Shown here: positions 1,498 through 12,566 of the stretch, piece after piece
Layout of the letters: each line of letters opens with the position of its first letter
Position numbering within the stretch: position 1 is the stretch's first letter
From: Gammaproteobacteria bacterium
GTDB lineage: Bacteria > Pseudomonadota > Gammaproteobacteria > Pseudomonadales > Litorivicinaceae
Direction of reading: 5' to 3'
NCBI GenBank assembly: GCA_009922705.1
Contig: RFUY01000002.1
Coordinates: forward strand, 1 to 41,729
Length of the DNA: 41,729 bases
Translations under genes and position numbers: made by a program
Notes under the pieces: model-generated
What the model saw: the letters and a program-made list of their open reading frames with translations, nothing else
What the model was told of the DNA's origin: nothing
Databases searched by the model: none

Positions 1498-3011
1498 ATC
1501 ACGACGGATCGAGTCGATACGACGATCTTTCGATCGCTGAGTTAATCGAGCACAGCATTCGTTTGGGCGAAGGACAGCTGTCTCGTCACGGTGCATTAGC
1601 CGTTCAGACCACGCGTGCTGAGGTGGTAAAGCGTTTCTTCGTCAATGAGCCCTCAGTCACCGACGTCTTGCGCGCCGATGCCAACTTTGATCTCCTCGAC
1701 AGCAAGGCATTCAAATCGCTGTGGGAATCCGTCAAGGATCAAATCGCCGACTATCCGCGCTATCGCCTCTACGCGCATCTTGGGGTCCATCCAGATAAAG
1801 CGGTCCCGTTAGAGATCACGACCCTGAAAGCATGGCATGCATTGGCATGTCACCACCTCTGTCATATTCCAGAGGATGATGCCTTCAACCCGCGAGAGAA
1901 ACCGCTTTGGAAACTGATCTGGGCACCCTTATCGGTCCTGAAACAGACGATGCCCTCGGTCATTGAGGAGGCTGCGGGCGTGATCATGATGCACGTCGGT
2001 AAACGTCGAGTCCTCATGGCAGGGGATCTTACAGCCGGCGAAATGCGCCGCACTCTGCTGACTGTGCTTGGGCTCCTACTGCCAGAAAAAGGGGCTCTAC
2101 CACTACACGGAGCCGCCTCGATTGGGGATGGCGAGATTACCCTGTTTTTAGGCCCTGCTGGCGCCCAGAAAACGACCTGGGCGATGCGGTGCGGACAATT
2201 AATCGGGGAGCGTGGGCTCTCTTGGTCAGAGGATGGTCTACACCGACTCGCAGATGGGTGTCGTCTCCATCTGGATGCAAGCCTGCCCATCGCGTTGGAT
2301 GAGGCATTGACCTTCGGCACGCTGGCAGAAGAGCTCACCCTGCACCCAGACCGTCGTCCAGTCTTGGCTTCCACCGAGACATCACAGCCGCCCGACCCAA
2401 TCCACCTGGTCTTGCCACTGTCGAAGCTCCAAGCGATCCAAGACCCTGACACGCGCGGTCCGAGTCAACTGGTGATTCTTGCCACGGACCCTCTGGGCGT
2501 CTTGCCACCCCTCGCGCAACTGACCAAAGAGCAGGCACTTGCCTGGTATGTTTTGGGGTATGGCAATCACTACGGACCGCTTGAACATCGCCAAGCCGCC
2601 TGTGATCTTCGATTTACGCCAGGATTCATGGACACGTTATTACCGCGCAGCCTCGATGAATACATCTATCTCCTCTCAGATCTCCTCGACACGCACCAGA
2701 CCCGTTGCTATTTGATTAATGCCGGATGGCATGGCGGTTCGTGTGGTGTTGGTGAGCCACTGTCGAGTTCAGAAGAAAGTGCCTGTCTCACGGCACTCTA
2801 CCACTGCGTCGATTGGCAACCCTTTGGCGCCTTCGGATTACGGATTCCCGCCGGGCACTCGGAAACCGCCGGGCCTTGGCACTCGCGTGAACGCTGGGCG
2901 GATCCCTCAGGATTTGGCGCCCAATTAGATGCACTCAAACAGGCCATTTCGGCCGAATTAAACACAACCTCTGATCCAAGCCGTTGGCTCACTGCTCTGG
3001 AGCTCTCGTGA
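1494..3011 (+). CDS. ATP-type phosphoenolpyruvate carboxykinase (PckA) family protein with degenerate active site; probable pseudoenzyme or neofunctionalised paralog
   Basis: PckA-like segments: AGEMRRTLLTVLGLLLPEKGALPLHGAASIGDGEITLFLGPAGAQKTTWA, LIGERGLSWSEDGLHRLADGC, LVILATDPLGVLPPLAQLTKEQALAWYVLGYG, CYLINAGWHGG. ATG overlaps the hslO stop (ATGA). Most catalytic residues are substituted. Confidence 0.85.
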   Translation: MNHDGSSRYDDLSIAELIEHSIRLGEGQLSRHGALAVQTTRAEVVKRFFVNEPSVTDVLRADANFDLLDSKAFKSLWESVKDQIADYPRYRLYAHLGVHPDKAVPLEITTLKAWHALACHHLCHIPEDDAFNPREKPLWKLIWAPLSVLKQTMPSVIEEAAGVIMMHVGKRRVLMAGDLTAGEMRRTLLTVLGLLLPEKGALPLHGAASIGDGEITLFLGPAGAQKTTWAMRCGQLIGERGLSWSEDGLHRLADGCRLHLDASLPIALDEALTFGTLAEELTLHPDRRPVLASTETSQPPDPIHLVLPLSKLQAIQDPDTRGPSQLVILATDPLGVLPPLAQLTKEQALAWYVLGYGNHYGPLEHRQAACDLRFTPGFMDTLLPRSLDEYIYLLSDLLDTHQTRCYLINAGWHGGSCGVGEPLSSSEESACLTALYHCVDWQPFGAFGLRIPAGHSETAGPWHSRERWADPSGFGAQLDALKQAISAELNTTSDPSRWLTALELS

Positions 3012-4579
3012 CCTTTGAACTCCCTCACTTTGATGCCACCGCGCGTCAGCTACTCGATCACCCAGAGTTTCTCAACATCTTGCAAGGATGCCGCTTTGGG
3101 CTCGAAAAAGAGGGACTCCGCGTAGACGCACGTGGCACGCTGTCTCAAAGCCCCCATCCAAAGGCGCTGGGTTCAAAGCTCACACATCCCGGAATAACCA
3201 CCGACTATTCCGAGTCCTTGCTCGAATTCGTGACTGGTATTCATGCCACCCCCTTTGCGGCGCTCCACGAAATCGACCAATTGCAGACCTTTACCGATCA
3301 GGCACTAGGGGATGAGTGCATCTGGCCCCTGTCAATGCCCTGCCAACTCCCAGATGATGACCATGACATTCCATTGGCTGACTATGGGCGTAGCCACACA
3401 GGACGCCTAAAAACCGTCTACCGGCGCGGTCTTGGCTACCGGTATGGGCGGCAAATGCAGACCATCGCGGGCGTACACTTTAATCTCTCCTTCCCTGATT
3501 CGCTCTGGGGTCAACTTGGCCAGCGGCGACCCGCACTCGCAGCCACTGACGCACGCCAGCAACGTGATTTAGGGTATTTCCATACCATCCGAAATTTCCG
3601 CCGAATCCAGTGGTTAATGCTGCTGTTGACCGGTGCCAGTCCAACCATGCATGACTCGTTTCGTCTCCTTGCGCTCGATCGCTTTAAGATTCGGGGTGAC
3701 ACTCGACTTGCACCCGTTGCAACCTCGCTCCGTATGAGTGACCTCGGCTATCAGAGTGCCGCGCAAGCCTCAATCAACATCTGCTTCAATCAACTCGAGA
3801 CCTATTGCGCCACCCTGCGTCGTGCCGTGTCGCAGCCTTGGCCGCCCTATGAAGGAATCGGCTTGATTGACCAAGAGGGTTTCAAGCAGCTCAACACTGC
3901 GATTTTACAGATTGAAAACGAGTACTACTCCAGCATCCGCCCGAAACGTGTGCAAGAGGCGGGGGAGCGCCCTGTGCGTGCCTTGATGAATCGCGGTGTT
4001 CAGTATCTGGAAGTCCGGGCGATCGACCTCAACCCCTTTGCGCGCAGTGGTCTCTCAGAAACCGAAGCGGCGTTCATCACACTGCTGATGACAGCAGCCG
4101 CTCTGTGTGAGGCTCGACACATGTCCGATGACGAATGCCGCATTATCGACAGCCTAAACGCTCGGGCTGCGTGGCGTGGTCGGGAAATCCAACAATCCTT
4201 CCCAGACGGGAGAGCGTTCCGGGAAACCGCGATTGATTGGCTGGCGCCACTGGATGGACTCGCCGCCCGCTTGGATGAGGCCCAATCTGTGACCTATCAC
4301 CGGGATGCGCTAAACGATGCCCGCATTCGACTCTCCGGCGACTGCCCACTGCTTGCTGAAGAGGTGTATCAAGGGGTTTTGCACCAAGGCCACTTAAATT
4401 TCGGACTCGAGCTTGGGCAGCACCACCAGTCGCACCGGCGAGGACAAGGACTGCCAACGGCCGTTCGTGACCATCTGACCACGCTCAGCGACACCAGTTG
4501 GATAGAAGATGCCAAGATCGCCGAGGCCGATCAAGGCACCTTCGAGGAGTATGTCTTAGCCTATGTCAATCAGCACTGA
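3008..4579 (+). CDS. gshA: Glutamate-cysteine ligase
   Basis: CRFGLEKEGLRVDARGTLSQSPHPKALGSKLTHPGITTDYSESLLEFVTG; GTG start overlaps the preceding TGA (GTGA). Confidence 0.95.
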   Translation: MTFELPHFDATARQLLDHPEFLNILQGCRFGLEKEGLRVDARGTLSQSPHPKALGSKLTHPGITTDYSESLLEFVTGIHATPFAALHEIDQLQTFTDQALGDECIWPLSMPCQLPDDDHDIPLADYGRSHTGRLKTVYRRGLGYRYGRQMQTIAGVHFNLSFPDSLWGQLGQRRPALAATDARQQRDLGYFHTIRNFRRIQWLMLLLTGASPTMHDSFRLLALDRFKIRGDTRLAPVATSLRMSDLGYQSAAQASINICFNQLETYCATLRRAVSQPWPPYEGIGLIDQEGFKQLNTAILQIENEYYSSIRPKRVQEAGERPVRALMNRGVQYLEVRAIDLNPFARSGLSETEAAFITLLMTAAALCEARHMSDDECRIIDSLNARAAWRGREIQQSFPDGRAFRETAIDWLAPLDGLAARLDEAQSVTYHRDALNDARIRLSGDCPLLAEEVYQGVLHQGHLNFGLELGQHHQSHRRGQGLPTAVRDHLTTLSDTSWIEDAKIAEADQGTFEEYVLAYVNQH

Positions 4580-4585
4580 CAGGCA

Positions 4586-5269
4586 CTAGTTCGCTGGGTT
4601 CACCTGAAGCAGTTCAACATCAAACACTAAGACGCTGTTCGGTGGAATCGGACCTGTTCCGCCCGGGCCATAGGCGAGTGCAGAGGGGATCGTAAACTGA
4701 TACTTAGCGCCAGGTGCCATTAACTGAACGCCTTCAGACCAGCCAGGAATCACACCGTTTAAGGGGAAGGTGACCGGCTCGCCACGCGCGATCGAACTGT
4801 CAAACACCTCGCCCGTGATTAACCGTCCTTCGTAGTGGACAGACACACGATCGGTCAGCGTTGGCTTAGTCCCTGACCCTTCAGCCAAGACCTTATATTG
4901 CAACCCTGAGGCCGTTGTTGCCACGCCCTCTGCCTTGGCGTTTTCAGCTAAATAGGCCTCGCCTGCTTTCAAATTTGCATCTGCCACAGCCTGCATCTGC
5001 GCCTCCCGTTGCTGTTGAACCTGTGCTTGCGCCGACTGCACGGACGCATTAATCGAAGGACGATCCATTTTCCACTGGGTGTCATCCGCAGAATCGACTA
5101 ATCCTTGCAAGACAAAGGCCGGATCAAGATCGCCAAAGTCATTCCGAATTCGCTCACCTAAGATAATGCCGAGGCTATAACTCAGCTTCTCCAAGTCTGA
5201 AGTGGGTGTCTCTGCGACAACGGGTGTGGCAAGACTCGCGGCCAACAACGCGACGTATACGGCTTTCAT
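4586..5269 (-). CDS. FKBP-type peptidyl-prolyl cis-trans isomerase, periplasmic (Mip/FkpA-like)
   Basis: Signal peptide MKAVYVALLAASLATPVVA; VSVHYEGRLITGEVFDSSIARGEPVTFPLNGVIPGWSEGVQLMAPGAKYQFTIPSALAYG. Confidence 0.93.
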   Translation of the reverse strand: MKAVYVALLAASLATPVVAETPTSDLEKLSYSLGIILGERIRNDFGDLDPAFVLQGLVDSADDTQWKMDRPSINASVQSAQAQVQQQREAQMQAVADANLKAGEAYLAENAKAEGVATTASGLQYKVLAEGSGTKPTLTDRVSVHYEGRLITGEVFDSSIARGEPVTFPLNGVIPGWSEGVQLMAPGAKYQFTIPSALAYGPGGTGPIPPNSVLVFDVELLQVNPAN

Positions 5270-5291: not shown

Positions 5292-5924
5292 TCAAAGGGT
5301 ATCAGGATCAACTGGGTGATTGCCAACCAAGCGCCGACGTCCCTCGAGAATTCGACCGATGGTGGTCAACAAGCAAAGACTTGCAAAGCCATACGCGAGC
5401 CAACCAAAAAGCTCAGGACGTAAACACATGACGCTGAACACGAGGGTCGTTTCAAATCCCTCGGTGAGTCCTTCCAGATAGTACATCGACTTCTGCTGCA
5501 TCCTCAGGTTCGTCATGCCGCGGGTCTTGGCAAAGATGGCAAAGGCTAAGAAGCTCGACGCGGTGCCAATGAAGCTAAACAACAAGACTGCTGCAGCAAG
5601 ACTGTCAGCCGGATCGCGTAACGCAAAGCCCAGCACCATGCCGGCATACACCAAGAAATCCAACACGATATCGAGGAACGCGCCCGCATCGCTCGATTCG
5701 CGCTGGCGCGCGATTGCGCCATCTAGGCCATCACACAACCGGTTCAGTAGGAACAGTCCCAAGCCGAGTCCTGTGGCATCGACACTGACACAGCTAATGG
5801 CCAAAAGGCCAAAGAAAGCACCAAGCCAAGTCATCTGATCGGCGGACCAGCCGCGTTTGACCAGCACAACGGCAACCCGCGAGAGCGGGCCCTTCAGACA
5901 TTGATTCAGACGGGCATCAAACAT
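5292..5924 (-). CDS. ynjF: CDP-alcohol phosphatidyltransferase family protein (YnjF-like)
   Basis: DGLDGAIARQRESSDAGAFLDIVLD matches DGx2ARx8Gx3Dx3D; linked to ynjBCD homologs as in E. coli. Confidence 0.85.
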   Translation of the reverse strand: MFDARLNQCLKGPLSRVAVVLVKRGWSADQMTWLGAFFGLLAISCVSVDATGLGLGLFLLNRLCDGLDGAIARQRESSDAGAFLDIVLDFLVYAGMVLGFALRDPADSLAAAVLLFSFIGTASSFLAFAIFAKTRGMTNLRMQQKSMYYLEGLTEGFETTLVFSVMCLRPELFGWLAYGFASLCLLTTIGRILEGRRRLVGNHPVDPDTL

Positions 5925-6529
5925 TCGACCCTACGTTCATCCGCGCGATCTTCACCACTGTGCGTGACTTGCAAACACATCGCCCCACTCTCTCGAACCC
6001 ACTGAAACACATAGGCGCGGACCGCTTCACGACGCGTTGGATCCAGTGCACTGAAGGCTTCATCCAGAAATAATACCTGAGGCTCTGGCGCGATAGCCCG
6101 CGCAATTTGAACCCGCATCGCCTCCCCACGCGACAACGCCGTCGCTGGATGCTCAAGCGGATACTCCAATCCCAGTGCCGCCAGAAGTTGTCGCACCCGT
6201 TCTACTTTGCCCTGCCTCGTCAGCCCCTCGAGGCCAAGCGCGATGTTTGCACCGATCGACAGGTGTGGGAACAGACTCGGTTCCTGAAAGACCATCTGTG
6301 CCCGCTTCGCCGAGATCGGAATCTCAGACCATACGCGTCCGGATAACCTGACCTCTCCACACAGCGACACGCCTGGACAGGGACCAATCAACGCCGAGAG
6401 TAGTGTGGATTTACCTAACCCAGAGGGACCCTCAAGCGTCCACACCTCACCCGGTGCAATTGCCAAGGAAAATGGCTGGAACAATCGCAGTCCATTCCGC
6501 TCAACGGTCAGCTCAAGACACTCAAACAT
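5906..6529 (-). CDS. ynjD: ABC transporter ATP-binding protein (YnjD-like)
   Basis: Walker A GPSGLGKST, signature LSRGEAMRVQIARA, Walker B VLFLDEAFSALDP. Confidence 0.88.
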   Translation of the reverse strand: MFECLELTVERNGLRLFQPFSLAIAPGEVWTLEGPSGLGKSTLLSALIGPCPGVSLCGEVRLSGRVWSEIPISAKRAQMVFQEPSLFPHLSIGANIALGLEGLTRQGKVERVRQLLAALGLEYPLEHPATALSRGEAMRVQIARAIAPEPQVLFLDEAFSALDPTRREAVRAYVFQWVRESGAMCLQVTHSGEDRADERRVECLMPV

Positions 6530-8111
6530 GAGACCTCCGTCCACCTGCAAGTAAACTTGCCACGACAAAAAGAACGGCAGGCAAGATGGTATTGGCAACA
6601 CCCGCTACTGCGGCCAAGCGTCGATCCGACTGGAGACTCACCACAAGCTCCGTTGCAAGGGTCTCAACCCGACCACCGCCAAGCATCAGCGTTTGCGTGT
6701 ACAGGGCACAGCTGACCGAAAACGCGACTGCGAAGGCTAACCAAAGCGCTGCGCGGTGCTTCGGTACCCACACCTGACGTAGGGCACGCCAGGGCCCAAG
6801 CCCGGACATCTGAATCACACTGCGCTCCCAACTGGGCCTCGCGAGCCAAGGGCCTGACAAAACAATCAAGGCATAAGGGCATGCAATCAACCAGTGTGCA
6901 AACAGCACTGCCCAAAAGCCTGGCTGCCCCCCAATCATAAGCCACACCGACAGTAACCCAGCAGACAGCGGTAGGGCTGGGACCCAGAGCACACCCCACC
7001 AAAACAAGGGGACTCTTCGCTGATGCCGCTGTGCCATCGACTCTAACACCCAAACGGCTCCGATCACTGCGCTGAGCGCAGTCGCGAGTCCCATCGCTGT
7101 CGTCTCTCGGATTGCTGTCACCATTCGCAGTAAACGCAGGCCCAATCGATCCCAATCCATCACCGGAAACGGCATCTGAAACGACCAGGGCCCGGCCACC
7201 GCCCACAACACCAGCGAAACTCCGATGGCACACCAGAGGAGTCCCCCGACGCACACGAGTCCCTGATGTCCAAGCCAAGTGATCTGCGACGGTCTCGGGA
7301 GTTCGACGTTTAACCGCCGCCACCAGGCCAGTCCTCGCATCAGGCCCAGGCACGCCAGCGAGAGGGCAAAGGTGACGCAAAGCAGGAGCAGCGCCCCGAC
7401 TGCACCCGCTGCCCGACGGATTGGATCGGCATCCGTCAACAGCGCGATTAGCCGAGGGCCAATCAACCCTGGAATATCGGGCGCTAAAATCAGGGTGAGT
7501 TCAAGATTGGTGAGCCCGAATGCCAAAATAATCAAAATTGGCGCCGTCAGCTGCGACAGGACTTGAGGCCACACACACTGACGAAAGATCCGCGGCGATG
7601 ACCAGCCAAGACTGGTCGCATGCAAAACCTGTCCCTGCACGGGCAATTGAACCAGAACAGCCATCGCCATGACGGTCAAAAACACGGTTTCCTTGAGAGT
7701 CAGCGCAAGAATCAAGCCGACCCCCCAGGGATCTTGTGGAAAAGTCCAATCTGGCGGACTCATCCAACCCAAGGGCCAGGCAAGCCATCGAACGATCACG
7801 CCACTTGGCACCAGCAACCACAACAAGCCCAAGGCCACCGCACTATGCGGCACTGCCAGTAACCCAGGCAGCCAGAGACGATGAGGACGCTGCCAGAGCC
7901 AGGCCGTCAACACCTTGGCACACGACACGCTGAGTACCGTACTCGCCACGGCAACCCAGGTCGATAGGCCCCAAACAGCGCCAAGGGCCGGCTCAGCCAC
8001 AAACACGCGCCAGGCCGCACCCGCTTGCGCAAAGTCCCGAAGTTCCCAGCCTAATCCAAACACCCCAGACGCCAGAGCCACGCACATGACCCAGGCAAGT
8101 GGATGCCTCAT
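6522..8111 (-). CDS. ynjC: ABC transporter permease with two fused permease halves (YnjC-like)
   Basis: About 530 aa hydrophobic protein with two permease-like halves; ATG overlaps the ynjB stop (ATGA). Confidence 0.88.
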   Translation of the reverse strand: MRHPLAWVMCVALASGVFGLGWELRDFAQAGAAWRVFVAEPALGAVWGLSTWVAVASTVLSVSCAKVLTAWLWQRPHRLWLPGLLAVPHSAVALGLLWLLVPSGVIVRWLAWPLGWMSPPDWTFPQDPWGVGLILALTLKETVFLTVMAMAVLVQLPVQGQVLHATSLGWSSPRIFRQCVWPQVLSQLTAPILIILAFGLTNLELTLILAPDIPGLIGPRLIALLTDADPIRRAAGAVGALLLLCVTFALSLACLGLMRGLAWWRRLNVELPRPSQITWLGHQGLVCVGGLLWCAIGVSLVLWAVAGPWSFQMPFPVMDWDRLGLRLLRMVTAIRETTAMGLATALSAVIGAVWVLESMAQRHQRRVPLFWWGVLWVPALPLSAGLLSVWLMIGGQPGFWAVLFAHWLIACPYALIVLSGPWLARPSWERSVIQMSGLGPWRALRQVWVPKHRAALWLAFAVAFSVSCALYTQTLMLGGGRVETLATELVVSLQSDRRLAAVAGVANTILPAVLFVVASLLAGGRRSHV

Positions 8112-9289
8112 TGCGTCAGATACCGCGCCCGCCAGGCAGCTTCGAGAGGCTCCGTCCATGAGGCATGAGGCTCAGGCAGAGCGGGTCCAAGTTGTTCGGG
8201 GCGTAATACAGATGCTGGGATGGGAAGAGCCTCAAAGAGGGCCCTAGCGTCTGCAGGTAAACGCGTCACATCCAACACGGTTGGATCACCCCACACCTCT
8301 GGGTTTGCCTTTTCCGCCTGCCAATGCGGTGACAGCAGCGCATTGATGGTGACTAATGCGGCGGCGCGTGCCTGTGCATTAAACGGAATTGCCAGGAAAT
8401 GGGTGTTTCCGAGTGTCCCGCCGGCATGCACATGGGTTCTGACGGTCTTGGGCACACGGCCGGACGCGATCTGGCTGGCCGCCTCGTTTGGGTTAAAACT
8501 CAGCGCAATGGCCAACTCCCCATCGGCCAACAGCTGAATCATCGCCTCCGCCGAATCCGGAAATTGCACGCCTTGTCGCCAGGCCACAGCATGTAAGCGA
8601 TCCAGATAATCCCAAACCGGTGCCGTTTGTACCGCAAAGGTTGCGGGCGTAACCGGGGTCGCAAGCACCGTGGGATCAGGGGCGAGCGCGAGCAGGACAT
8701 GCTTTAAAAACGTCGTTCCGTGGAAATTCGGTGGCTCCGGATAGCTCACTCGGCCCGGATTTGCGTGTGCAAACGCCAACAGCGTTTCAAGGCTATTGGG
8801 GGGAGTGGAAACCACCGCCTCATCATGCAAAAAGACCAAGCGCGCGCGACCCCAGGGCGCTTCAAGCCCCTCTGTTGGAATCGAGAAATCCATCACGAGC
8901 GTGGGATCGTTCGGATCCAGGAATTGCGCATTGGGCAACTCAGACACAAACGGCTGACCCAATAACCCTTCCCGCTTGAGACGCGCGAAGTTTTCACCAT
9001 TGACCCACAACAGATCTGCAGAACCGCGCGCAGAACCCGCTCGACGCTCAGCTTCAATCCGTGCAATCACAGCCGCGATGTCATCGACTTTCACATGAAC
9101 TAGGCGGAGTTGATACATCGCCTCCAAGGCGTCACCCACGCGAGCGATGTACTGATTGATCGTCTCTGAGCCACCCCAGGCATTGAAGTAGACCGTTTGG
9201 CCTCGCGCCTGGCGCTCGACCTCGGACCATGTTTGGGCTGCGCCCACCTGAGCCATACCCACCAGCAACAACGCCATCAAAAACCGCAT
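8108..9289 (-). CDS. ynjB: ABC transporter substrate-binding protein (YnjB-like)
   Basis: Signal peptide; QTVYFNAWGGSETINQYIARVGDALE...ADLLWVNGENFARLKREGLLGQPF resembles E. coli YnjB. Confidence 0.88.
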   Translation of the reverse strand: MRFLMALLLVGMAQVGAAQTWSEVERQARGQTVYFNAWGGSETINQYIARVGDALEAMYQLRLVHVKVDDIAAVIARIEAERRAGSARGSADLLWVNGENFARLKREGLLGQPFVSELPNAQFLDPNDPTLVMDFSIPTEGLEAPWGRARLVFLHDEAVVSTPPNSLETLLAFAHANPGRVSYPEPPNFHGTTFLKHVLLALAPDPTVLATPVTPATFAVQTAPVWDYLDRLHAVAWRQGVQFPDSAEAMIQLLADGELAIALSFNPNEAASQIASGRVPKTVRTHVHAGGTLGNTHFLAIPFNAQARAAALVTINALLSPHWQAEKANPEVWGDPTVLDVTRLPADARALFEALPIPASVLRPEQLGPALPEPHASWTEPLEAAWRARYLTQ

Positions 9290-9392
9290 TTCAAACTCCT
9301 GTAGACAAGGGGGTCCGCATCGGAGCCGACCCCAAGCTGTGCTTTCTAAGTCTCTGGGCTAGCGCACACGTTTTCAAAACATCTCATCACCG

Positions 9393-10787
9393 TTAGGGAA
9401 TCCATCGTTGCACCCAGCGCACCACAGCCCGTGTGCGATCCGAGAAGAGTCGAGGCGTAAAAAACGCACTTGCGACCCGTTTTGTCACCTCTGACCGCGT
9501 CGGATAGGGCACGATCGTCGAAGCAATCTGACTCAATCGCAAGCCTCGATCGAGGGCGAGGACCCAAGGCAGAATCAGTTCGCCCGCATGTTGTCCCAAA
9601 ATATCGACACTCAACAAGCGCCCCCGATGATCAGTCACGATTCGAATACGCCCATCGGTCCGTCCCTCGCAACGCGCCCGATCAATGTCAGAAAATGGAA
9701 TCTCAACCACGCGTTGTCCCGAGCGCGGAACCACCGCATCGCGCTGCTCAACAGTCAACCCAGCATGGGCAAGCTCTGGATCCGTATAGGTCACCCAGGG
9801 GACGGTTTGACGCCCAACTTTTGCTGGTAGACCGAATAAGGCTTGCTTAACCACGACACTGGCATGCGCACTGGCGGCGTGGGTAAAGGCCTCACGGCCT
9901 GCCACATCGCCAATGGCAAAGATATGTCGCTGACTGGTCCGCAAACGAGAATCTGTCGTCACACCTCGTGATGTCGCAGCAACCCCCGCACGCGGCAAAT
10001 CCAACGTCTCCACATTTGGCACACGGCCAGTGGCTAAGAGCAATCGACTTGCCGTCAGTGTCTGACCATCAGACAGCCGCACAGTGGTTTGGCCGTCAGC
10101 GGCTCGAGCCACGTCGCGGACCGAAGCCCCAACCAAAACGCGAATACCGCTGGCCTCGAGAATTTCCCTGAGCTCCGCAACCAAGCTCGGCTCATCGCGA
10201 GGCATGAGAACATCCGGCTCGACGACTGTCACCTGACAGCCAAATAACTGGTGTGCCTGAGCCATCTCCAGTCCAATCGGGCCGCCCCCTAACACAATCA
10301 AAGAGGTCGGCAAGTGCTCGTCTGAAAATAGCGTCTCACTGGTCCAATACGGGACAGTCTCCAACCCCGAAATCGGAGGAATGCGCGGTCTCGATCCAGT
10401 CGCAATGACAATCCGGCGCGCGCGAACGCGAGAATCACCGCCAACGACGGTCTTGGCATCCTCAAATCGAGCCAGATGCTGGATCACTCGTACGCCAAGC
10501 CCTTCAAATCGCTCGACAGAGTCATGGGGCGCAATGCTCGCAATGACCTCGCGTACCGTGGCCTTCGCACGGGCATAGTGACCAGGCCCTGCAACGCCAT
10601 CGCGCGCCGCCGCCTTGGCCGCTGCAAGCAGCGTTTTCGAAGGGACGCACCCGGTGTTTAGGCAATCACCCCCCATCCGGTGCCCCTCAAATAACACCAC
10701 GGAAGCACCCAATTGCGCAGCACCAGCCGCCACGGATAATCCGCCACTACCACCCCCGATCACGCAAAGATCAACGCGGGTTGTCAT
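9393..10787 (-). CDS. FAD/NAD-dependent pyridine nucleotide-disulfide oxidoreductase, MerA/Lpd-like
   Basis: CVIGGGSGGLSVAAGAAQLGASVVLFE; redox CxxxxC in GGDCLNTGCVPSK; HIFAIGDVAG; C-terminal YPTRSE. No HMA domain and no C-terminal CC pair. Confidence 0.9.
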   Translation of the reverse strand: MTTRVDLCVIGGGSGGLSVAAGAAQLGASVVLFEGHRMGGDCLNTGCVPSKTLLAAAKAAARDGVAGPGHYARAKATVREVIASIAPHDSVERFEGLGVRVIQHLARFEDAKTVVGGDSRVRARRIVIATGSRPRIPPISGLETVPYWTSETLFSDEHLPTSLIVLGGGPIGLEMAQAHQLFGCQVTVVEPDVLMPRDEPSLVAELREILEASGIRVLVGASVRDVARAADGQTTVRLSDGQTLTASRLLLATGRVPNVETLDLPRAGVAATSRGVTTDSRLRTSQRHIFAIGDVAGREAFTHAASAHASVVVKQALFGLPAKVGRQTVPWVTYTDPELAHAGLTVEQRDAVVPRSGQRVVEIPFSDIDRARCEGRTDGRIRIVTDHRGRLLSVDILGQHAGELILPWVLALDRGLRLSQIASTIVPYPTRSEVTKRVASAFFTPRLFSDRTRAVVRWVQRWIP

Positions 10788-11466
10788 TGAGCACACCCTC
10801 CTGTCGTTGGCTCACGATTGCGGATACAACGGACAAACACCCAAGCGCAAGTAGCGGAGCCCACACCTGAGGATGTGCCAAGACGTCAAGATTTGGCATG
10901 ACCCCTTGGCTCAAGACATGATCAAATCCGACGCCCACACCGACGTAGATCAACGTTCCGGGCAAAATCCCCACTGCTGTCGACACCACAAACTGGTCAA
11001 ACCGCATGCCAAGGAGTGCTGGTAGCGCATTGGCCACCCAAAAGGGGACGACCGGAATCAGTCGAAGACTCAGTGCCCAGCGAAACGGGCGGGCTAAAAA
11101 TGCGCCCCGAAACCGTTGGAGTGCGTGGGCCAGGCGCTGCTCGGCCCATTGCCCAAAAAAGAACCGAACCATGACAAACACAATCGCAGCACCGCTCGTT
11201 GCGCCTATCCAAATCGGCACGACGCCGATCCAGCCAAAGAGTGCAGCGCCACCCAAAGTCAACACACTCGCCACAGGCAAGGAGAGTGAGACGGTCAGAC
11301 AATACAGACCACCGAACACGATCAAGGCCAAGCCCTGTGAGGCCGCAATCGCAGACTTTAAGGCCAAATAATGCAGGGACAGCGCAGAAAATGAGAGGAT
11401 GTCTCGCGCCCACCACCCAAGCCCGATGATGAGGCAGATCAACCCCAATCCAACGAATTTCTTCAC
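10771..11466 (-). CDS. TVP38/TMEM64 (VTT-domain) membrane protein, YdjX/YdjZ-like
   Basis: SLPVASVLTLGGAALFGWIGVVPIWIGATSGAAIVFVMVRFFFG...ALSLRLIPVVPFWVANALPALLGMRFDQFVVSTAVGILPGTLIYVGVG; GTG start at 11466 preceded by GGAG; overlaps the next gene. Confidence 0.85.
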   Translation of the reverse strand: MKKFVGLGLICLIIGLGWWARDILSFSALSLHYLALKSAIAASQGLALIVFGGLYCLTVSLSLPVASVLTLGGAALFGWIGVVPIWIGATSGAAIVFVMVRFFFGQWAEQRLAHALQRFRGAFLARPFRWALSLRLIPVVPFWVANALPALLGMRFDQFVVSTAVGILPGTLIYVGVGVGFDHVLSQGVMPNLDVLAHPQVWAPLLALGCLSVVSAIVSQRQEGVLNDNPR

Positions 11467-11525
11467 GACAATGCTCCGTTCAGAGCGCAATGGTATGCTG
11501 TCTCCCAAGCAATCACTACGGATAA

Positions 11526-12566
<1,041 letters not shown>

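Follow-up and report, generated by a model that had tools for sequence, protein, structure and literature searches.

Why should an ABC importer share an operon with a CDP-alcohol phosphatidyltransferase, a DedA-type membrane protein and a flavoprotein? The question is raised by six minus-strand genes at positions 5292-11466 of a 41,729-nucleotide stretch (contig RFUY01000002.1 of assembly GCA_009922705.1, hereafter the window) from a gammaproteobacterial metagenome-assembled genome (MAG) of the Litorivicinaceae, which spans 2.0 Mb in 366 contigs and is 89% complete. We tentatively read the operon, built around homologues of E. coli YnjB, YnjC, YnjD and YnjF, as a salvage-and-lipidation module for a nucleoside-like riboside, in which YnjBCD would import the molecule, YnjF would lipidate it and the VTT protein and flavoprotein (VTT/FAD) would process the product, a reading that may well prove wrong. 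An earlier note on this DNA had described the presence of the six genes, their order, their overlapping ends and a single gap, and all of these were confirmed:

10771-11466, minus strand: VTT gene (starts with the GTG at 11466), encoding a TVP38 membrane protein of the COG0398-type DedA group related to E. coli YdjX/YdjZ
9393-10787, minus strand: flavoprotein gene (class I pyridine nucleotide-disulfide oxidoreductase, MerA-like), ATG at 10787
8108-9289, minus strand: ynjB, periplasmic substrate-binding protein (SBP) with Sec signal (NF008633)
6522-8111, minus strand: ynjC, long permease, ATG at 8111
5906-6529, minus strand: ynjD, ABC ATPase without C-terminal regulatory domain (PF00005, 90.9 bits)
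5292-5924, minus strand: ynjF, CDP-alcohol phosphatidyltransferase (PF01066, catalytic motif intact)

The VTT and flavoprotein genes overlap by 17 nt, and the gap, a 103-nt spacer, lies between the flavoprotein stop and ynjB. The reading frame of ynjC is open from 8159, its ATG at 8111 giving a 4-nt ATGA overlap with ynjB, while ynjC and ynjD overlap by 8 nt and ynjD and ynjF by 19 nt. As in the wider ynjBCDF family, ynjB, ynjC and ynjD stand in one operon with ynjF linked to it.

Co-occurrence of YnjB and YnjF

The earlier note suggested that the importer could supply YnjF with a small alcohol, and named co-occurrence in gene neighbourhoods across Proteobacteria as one check. Among 299 evenly drawn Pseudomonadota genomes from several orders and classes, YnjB (over cut-off) was present in 31 and YnjF in 35; the two occurred together in 29, YnjB alone in two and YnjF alone in six. 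YnjF is therefore found in 29/31 genomes with YnjB against 6/268 others (Fisher p ~4e-32, uncorrected for phylogeny), and for YnjBCD and YnjF the check was passed. The association is not due to chance. The genomes span several orders and classes of the phylum and seven of the 29 co-occurring ones carry ynjB and ynjF at unlinked loci, so it is also more than inherited gene order; judged from gene content, functional coupling of YnjBCD and YnjF is well supported. The note's idea is strengthened by this co-occurrence and its substrate is narrowed by the transporter swap described below, while the associated redox step, and any role of the VTT protein in moving lipid, keep the standing of suggestions. 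YnjBCDF was also found in Desulfobacterota. The neighbours of unlinked ynjF genes (nrdB, a Crp-type regulator, a branched-chain SBP) share no common theme, and the flanks of most distant loci (FtsY, HrpB, TonB-like, Hsp70-like and CcdA/DsbD-like, named by eye) look like lineage-specific neighbours. Inserted DNA of up to ~5 kb parts ynjB from ynjC in several Comamonadaceae (L054, L063, L066, L067, L068, L070, L071, L074), with gene order kept.

YnjF passes the PF01066 cut-off and has the six-transmembrane fold and the D-x2-DG-x2-AR-x7/8-G-x3-D-x3-D motif of its family, here D65-x2-D68-G69-x2-A72-R73-x7-G81-x3-D85-x3-D89, which is invariant in the YnjF alignment; its model (pLDDT 87) has PIP synthases and AF2299 as closest solved folds (Foldseek TM 0.64-0.73). 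Enzymes of the CDP-alcohol transferase family couple an alcohol with a phosphatidyl group, and CMP is released. YnjB scores 505 bits on NF008633 (cut-off 203) and its AlphaFold model (pLDDT 94) has a type-II SBP fold, whose neighbours bind polyamines, aminoethylphosphonate, ferric ion, thiamin, sugar phosphates and pyridoxal phosphate; a single-sequence search of the PDB returned no relative of YnjB and a profile search weak ones only. YnjC is faintly similar to ThiP over 488 positions, that is, over its length.

The CNT transporter and the imported substrate

The class of imported molecule is suggested by a replacement of the importer. In one Sphingomonadaceae-type family (that of genome G087) YnjF is encoded by 14 of 121 genomes, and in 13 of these 14 the gene directly upstream, mostly at a gap of 4-29 nt, is a NupC-like CNT gene (PF07662, PF01773, PF07670) that replaces ynjBCD; VTT-FAD lies in the same stretch as ynjF in 12/14. 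CNT proteins are nucleoside symporters. A Sphingopyxis plasmid, by its RefSeq annotation, carries TVP38/FAD, a TonB receptor, a nucleoside transporter, a CDP-alcohol transferase and a YnjA-like peroxidase-related protein, and genes of this last kind also lie downstream of ynjF in other members. The catalytic motif and the C-terminal residues K145, Y149, G152-L153, E155-G156 and E158-T159, which likely face the acceptor, are identical in ABC-linked and CNT-linked YnjF. The most economical reading of these sequences is that CNT and YnjBCD import the same class of molecule. From the CNT replacement, YnjB would be predicted to bind nucleosides. No CNT homologue was found in the incomplete source assembly.

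The scheme that we infer, from the riboside substrate and its use by YnjF to the lipid product and the role of VTT/FAD, would run as follows. In the periplasm, YnjB would bind a small riboside resembling a nucleoside, or some other ribosyl alcohol, for ATP-driven import through YnjCD; YnjF could then move the phosphatidyl group from CDP-diacylglycerol onto one of the free hydroxyls of the imported molecule and so make a phospholipid whose head group is unusual. This lipid may next be acted on by the VTT protein and its MerA-like NAD(P)H:flavin partner, through transport to the other side of the inner membrane, for which the flavoprotein would supply reducing power, through reduction of the head group or of a partner thiol, or through both.

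Several observations weigh against this scheme. The CNT-linked YnjF proteins form one group on the YnjF tree and come from one family; read from the tree, the swap is therefore a single evolutionary event, retained in many genera. The CNT protein scores 272 bits against nupC (cut-off 442) and need not carry an ordinary nucleoside, E. coli has ynjBCDF despite its own nucleoside transporters (a CNT match was obtained in the E. coli control), and there is no nucleoside binder among the fold neighbours of YnjB. VTT/FAD is missing near ynjBCDF in many lineages and is therefore not obligatory, and no lipid of the proposed kind is reported for these bacteria in the searchable literature. In an open-access library, which does not cover subscription papers, no paper was found that deals with what YnjBCD or YnjF do or that connects CNT with YnjF. 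A wider claim, in which YnjBCD would be a new nucleoside/riboside ABC importer, YnjF would make a phosphatidyl-nucleoside-type lipid and VTT/FAD would be a general ribosyl-phospholipid unit shared with the arsenosugar route, seems to us rather unlikely.

The VTT protein, the flavoprotein and rival explanations

The VTT protein scores 63.9 bits on PF09335 (cut-off 33.9) and is homologous to YdjZ/YdjX; no sequence relative of it was found in the PDB. Eukaryotic COG0398 relatives scramble lipids. The flavoprotein combines PF07992 and PF02852 (Pfam/NCBIfam profiles), is MerA-like in its redox motif GGDCLNTGCVPSK and in the Tyr of PYPTRSE at the C-terminal base position, and has NF004991 as its best NCBIfam match, as have the VTT-FAD fusions described below. 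Identification as mercuric reductase MerA was rejected (318 bits on TIGR02053, cut-off 454; the C-terminus ends RWIP, with no CC pair).

The nearest relative found, a Litoricola MAG (L003), shares 77% YnjB identity with the window, and VTT, ynjBCD, ynjF and an FKBP gene are present in every Litoricola-type locus with enough flank. The flavoprotein gene is found at the locus in some of these genomes (L003, L004, L006, L007) and is missing there in L005 and L008-L015, in which VTT lies immediately upstream of ynjB. As these sister loci are without it, the flavoprotein stands outside any minimal core in the Litoricola clade, and the suggestion of the earlier note that the six genes may form such a core fails for this gene. 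In L007 the flavoprotein gene (2716-4135) and ynjC (5342-6931) are each broken into two frames, by decay or assembly errors. Two further features border the operon:

4586-5269, minus strand: gene for an FKBP-type peptidyl-prolyl isomerase that carries a signal peptide, 22 nt past ynjF
11467-11555: 89-nt spacer between the divergent operon start and hemB (plus strand, 11556)

The FKBP gene is a conserved ynjF neighbour in the Litoricola clade only and its function is probably separate from the operon; its product scores 103.7 bits on NCBIfam BamJ (cut-off 100), other FKBP models scoring higher but under their own cut-offs.

Outside this clade the VTT protein and flavoprotein are usually a single fused protein. 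VTT-FAD occurs in 49/299 genomes, as 44 full-length fusions and five pairs split in adjacent frames, and all 49 also encode YnjF or TIGR04283, an arsenosugar-type glycosyltransferase; among TIGR04283-negative genomes, YnjF is present in 14/14 with VTT-FAD (p 8.5e-12). VTT or VTT-FAD lies within ~10 kb of ynjB or ynjF in 16/37 genomes from nine families, so the co-occurrence check was passed for this pair and YnjF as well, but less tightly than for the importer. Alteromonadales-type operons read TonB receptor–VTT/FAD–DUF547–ynjBCDF and Rhodobacterales plasmids VTT/FAD–ynjF–ynjBCD followed by an FAD oxidoreductase gene; TonB receptors are part of the operon in two lineages. An 8-oxoguanine deaminase gene beside VTT-FAD-ynjF was seen once (G012).

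VTT-FAD also adjoins arsS, the arsenosugar radical-SAM gene, in 6/8 gammaproteobacterial arsS loci (L127, where it is split, L129, L130, L131, L133 and L134), usually with TIGR04282/TIGR04283, and being common to these clusters the pair is not specific to YnjBCDF. In arsenosugar clusters ArsS makes a modified nucleoside in-house. The L127 cluster contains a purine nucleoside phosphorylase-fold gene, and DUF3047 genes lie in arsS loci (L130; by eye L129 and L133) and beside VTT-FAD in L034. YnjF and TIGR04283 share a genome in three cases and YnjF and arsS in none, counts in which the phylogeny of the drawn genomes is a confounder. The link would agree with ribosyl phospholipids as a shared theme, but here the argument is at its weakest. 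An oxidoreductase resembling TIGR03169, a type that is fused to SelD in other settings, turns up repeatedly in the vicinity of VTT-FAD or ynjBCDF (L034 17153, L062 13476, L080 6447, L084 185, L107 1933, L108 4808, L121 2743, L134 15545, L166 5038, L170 13276).

A cassette on conjugative IncC and IncF plasmids of E. coli and Providencia (L143 5958-17391, NZ_KP056256.1; also L144 and L145) joins DUF2282-DUF692-DNA-binding-DoxX genes, VTT-FAD, a TIGR03169-like oxidoreductase, ynjBCDF, an ECF sigma factor, an AhpD-like protein and a haloacid dehalogenase, and a complete set on conjugative enterobacterial plasmids argues for selective value somewhere. Similar YnjB/YnjF matches lie on plasmids of Klebsiella, Salmonella and Citrobacter, cattle or milk being the origin of many; in the Providencia plasmid (L145 9980-12867) IS26 and resistance genes break the cassette past ynjB, interrupting ynjCDF.

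Could the importer and YnjF be coupled around a different alcohol? A polyol, an amino alcohol, or a thiamin-like or phosphonate-like compound joined to CDP-diacylglycerol is possible, if doubtful: sequence and fold neighbours of YnjB bind polyamines, 2-aminoethylphosphonate, thiamin and phosphorylated sugars, YnjBCD is laid out like ThiBPQ, and one locus has a small-molecule kinase of APH fold upstream of ynjB, a second a similar unassigned open-reading frame, but the importer swapped in belongs to the CNT nucleoside family. An envelope stress module, responding to copper, hypochlorous acid or thiol stress, with the flavoprotein as an RclA/MerA-like detoxifying reductase and YnjF and VTT adjusting the membrane, we consider unlikely. 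The DUF2282-DUF692-DoxX (bufferin-type copper) genes of the plasmids adjoin VTT-FAD, TIGR03169 and ynjBCDF, AhpD-like genes recur and the flavoprotein resembles the MerA and RclA families; however, the bufferin genes are confined to that one cassette, importer-YnjF coupling is independent of it, and the flavoprotein falls below the NCBIfam cut-offs of the MerA, RclA and HOSCN-reductase families.

Handling of metalloids, in which an organo-arsenic or organo-selenium riboside (e.g. an environmental arsenosugar) would be imported or processed and stored as lipid through a VTT/FAD step shared with the arsS route, is improbable in our judgement. It would account for VTT-FAD adjoining both arsS and the SelD-associated TIGR03169 oxidoreductase, for the position of TIGR04282/TIGR04283, which carry the name of arsenosugar glycosyltransferases, in or next to ynjBCD of G050 and G086, and for arsS in 0/31 YnjB and 0/35 YnjF genomes against 114/299 overall, an exclusion confounded by phylogeny, since the arsS genomes drawn stem mostly from a small number of families, rich in MAGs, that belong to another class. 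Against it, the NCBIfam names rest on neighbourhood and not on assay, ynjBCDF has no recurrent arsenic resistance gene in its vicinity, and arsS (TIGR04167) and TIGR04283 have no match in the source genome, by which arsenosugar synthesis in the source organism was rejected. That VTT, flavoprotein and FKBP are mere hitchhikers beside a coupled YnjBCD and YnjF in the source genome is quite improbable: the sister loci without the flavoprotein, the FKBP directly past ynjF in Litoricola only and the many ynjBCDF loci without VTT are set against the proximity seen in nine families and the 14/14 TIGR04283-negative genomes.

Relation to known systems

If the wider reading, with YnjBCD as a new riboside importer and YnjF as the maker of a phosphatidyl-nucleoside-type lipid, were right, E. 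coli would contain an undescribed head-group salvage pathway; ynjBCDF is one of the remaining orphan systems of K-12. The CNT replacement beside YnjF and VTT-flavoprotein offers a concrete, testable ligand class, and, with VTT-FAD common to ynjF and arsS clusters, unusual head groups of phospholipids would be linked to a bacterial protein related to the eukaryotic scramblases TMEM41B/VMP1.

YnjBCD of the window resembles ThiBPQ in its layout of SBP, long permease and short ATPase and in its SBP fold; identity as a thiamin importer was rejected on scores (ThiP 25 against 395 bits, ThiQ 101 against 298, no ThiB match). PIP synthases and the AF2299 CDP-alcohol phosphotransferases have fold and catalytic motif in common with YnjF, which is set apart by its C-terminal acceptor-side motif K-x3-Y-x2-GL-x-EG-x-ET, specific to YnjF proteins and kept throughout them. 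The window pair shares both domains and their order with the 'Bifunctional TVP38/TMEM64 family protein/FAD-dependent oxidoreductase' (COG0398 + PF07992-PF02852), but is encoded by two overlapping genes with only ~40% (FAD) and ~25% (VTT) identity. This is the commonest fusion for COG0398, and lipid flipping or scrambling has been suggested for the COG0398/TVP38 subfamily in the same paper (PMC10127716). In arsS clusters a VTT-FAD protein likewise adjoins TIGR04282/TIGR04283; in place of these genes the source genome has YnjBCD and YnjF.

The E. coli ydjXYZ-ynjABCDEF genes are FNR-regulated (PMC3688515) and functionally uncharacterised. The K-12 locus (ydjXYZ-ynjABCD/ynjE/ynjF, b1750-b1758) has the YnjB, YnjC, YnjD and YnjF subfamilies in common with the window, and in both a YdjX/YdjZ-type VTT gene lies upstream. 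The earlier note had listed ynjE, ynjA and ydjY as absent; ydjY (NF040466) and ynjA (PF02627, CMD fold) indeed have no match in the assembly, which at 89% completeness does not prove absence, and ynjE, which was not sought genome-wide, is missing from the window. Such accessory genes (ydjY, ynjA) are variable among other ynjBCDF members too. Unlike E. coli, the window has a separate MerA-like flavoprotein and one VTT gene instead of two, and its ynjF lies on the same strand immediately past ynjD. The cluster thus belongs to the E. coli ydjXYZ-ynjABCDEF kind, as a variant with a separate flavoprotein and with the accessory genes not found.

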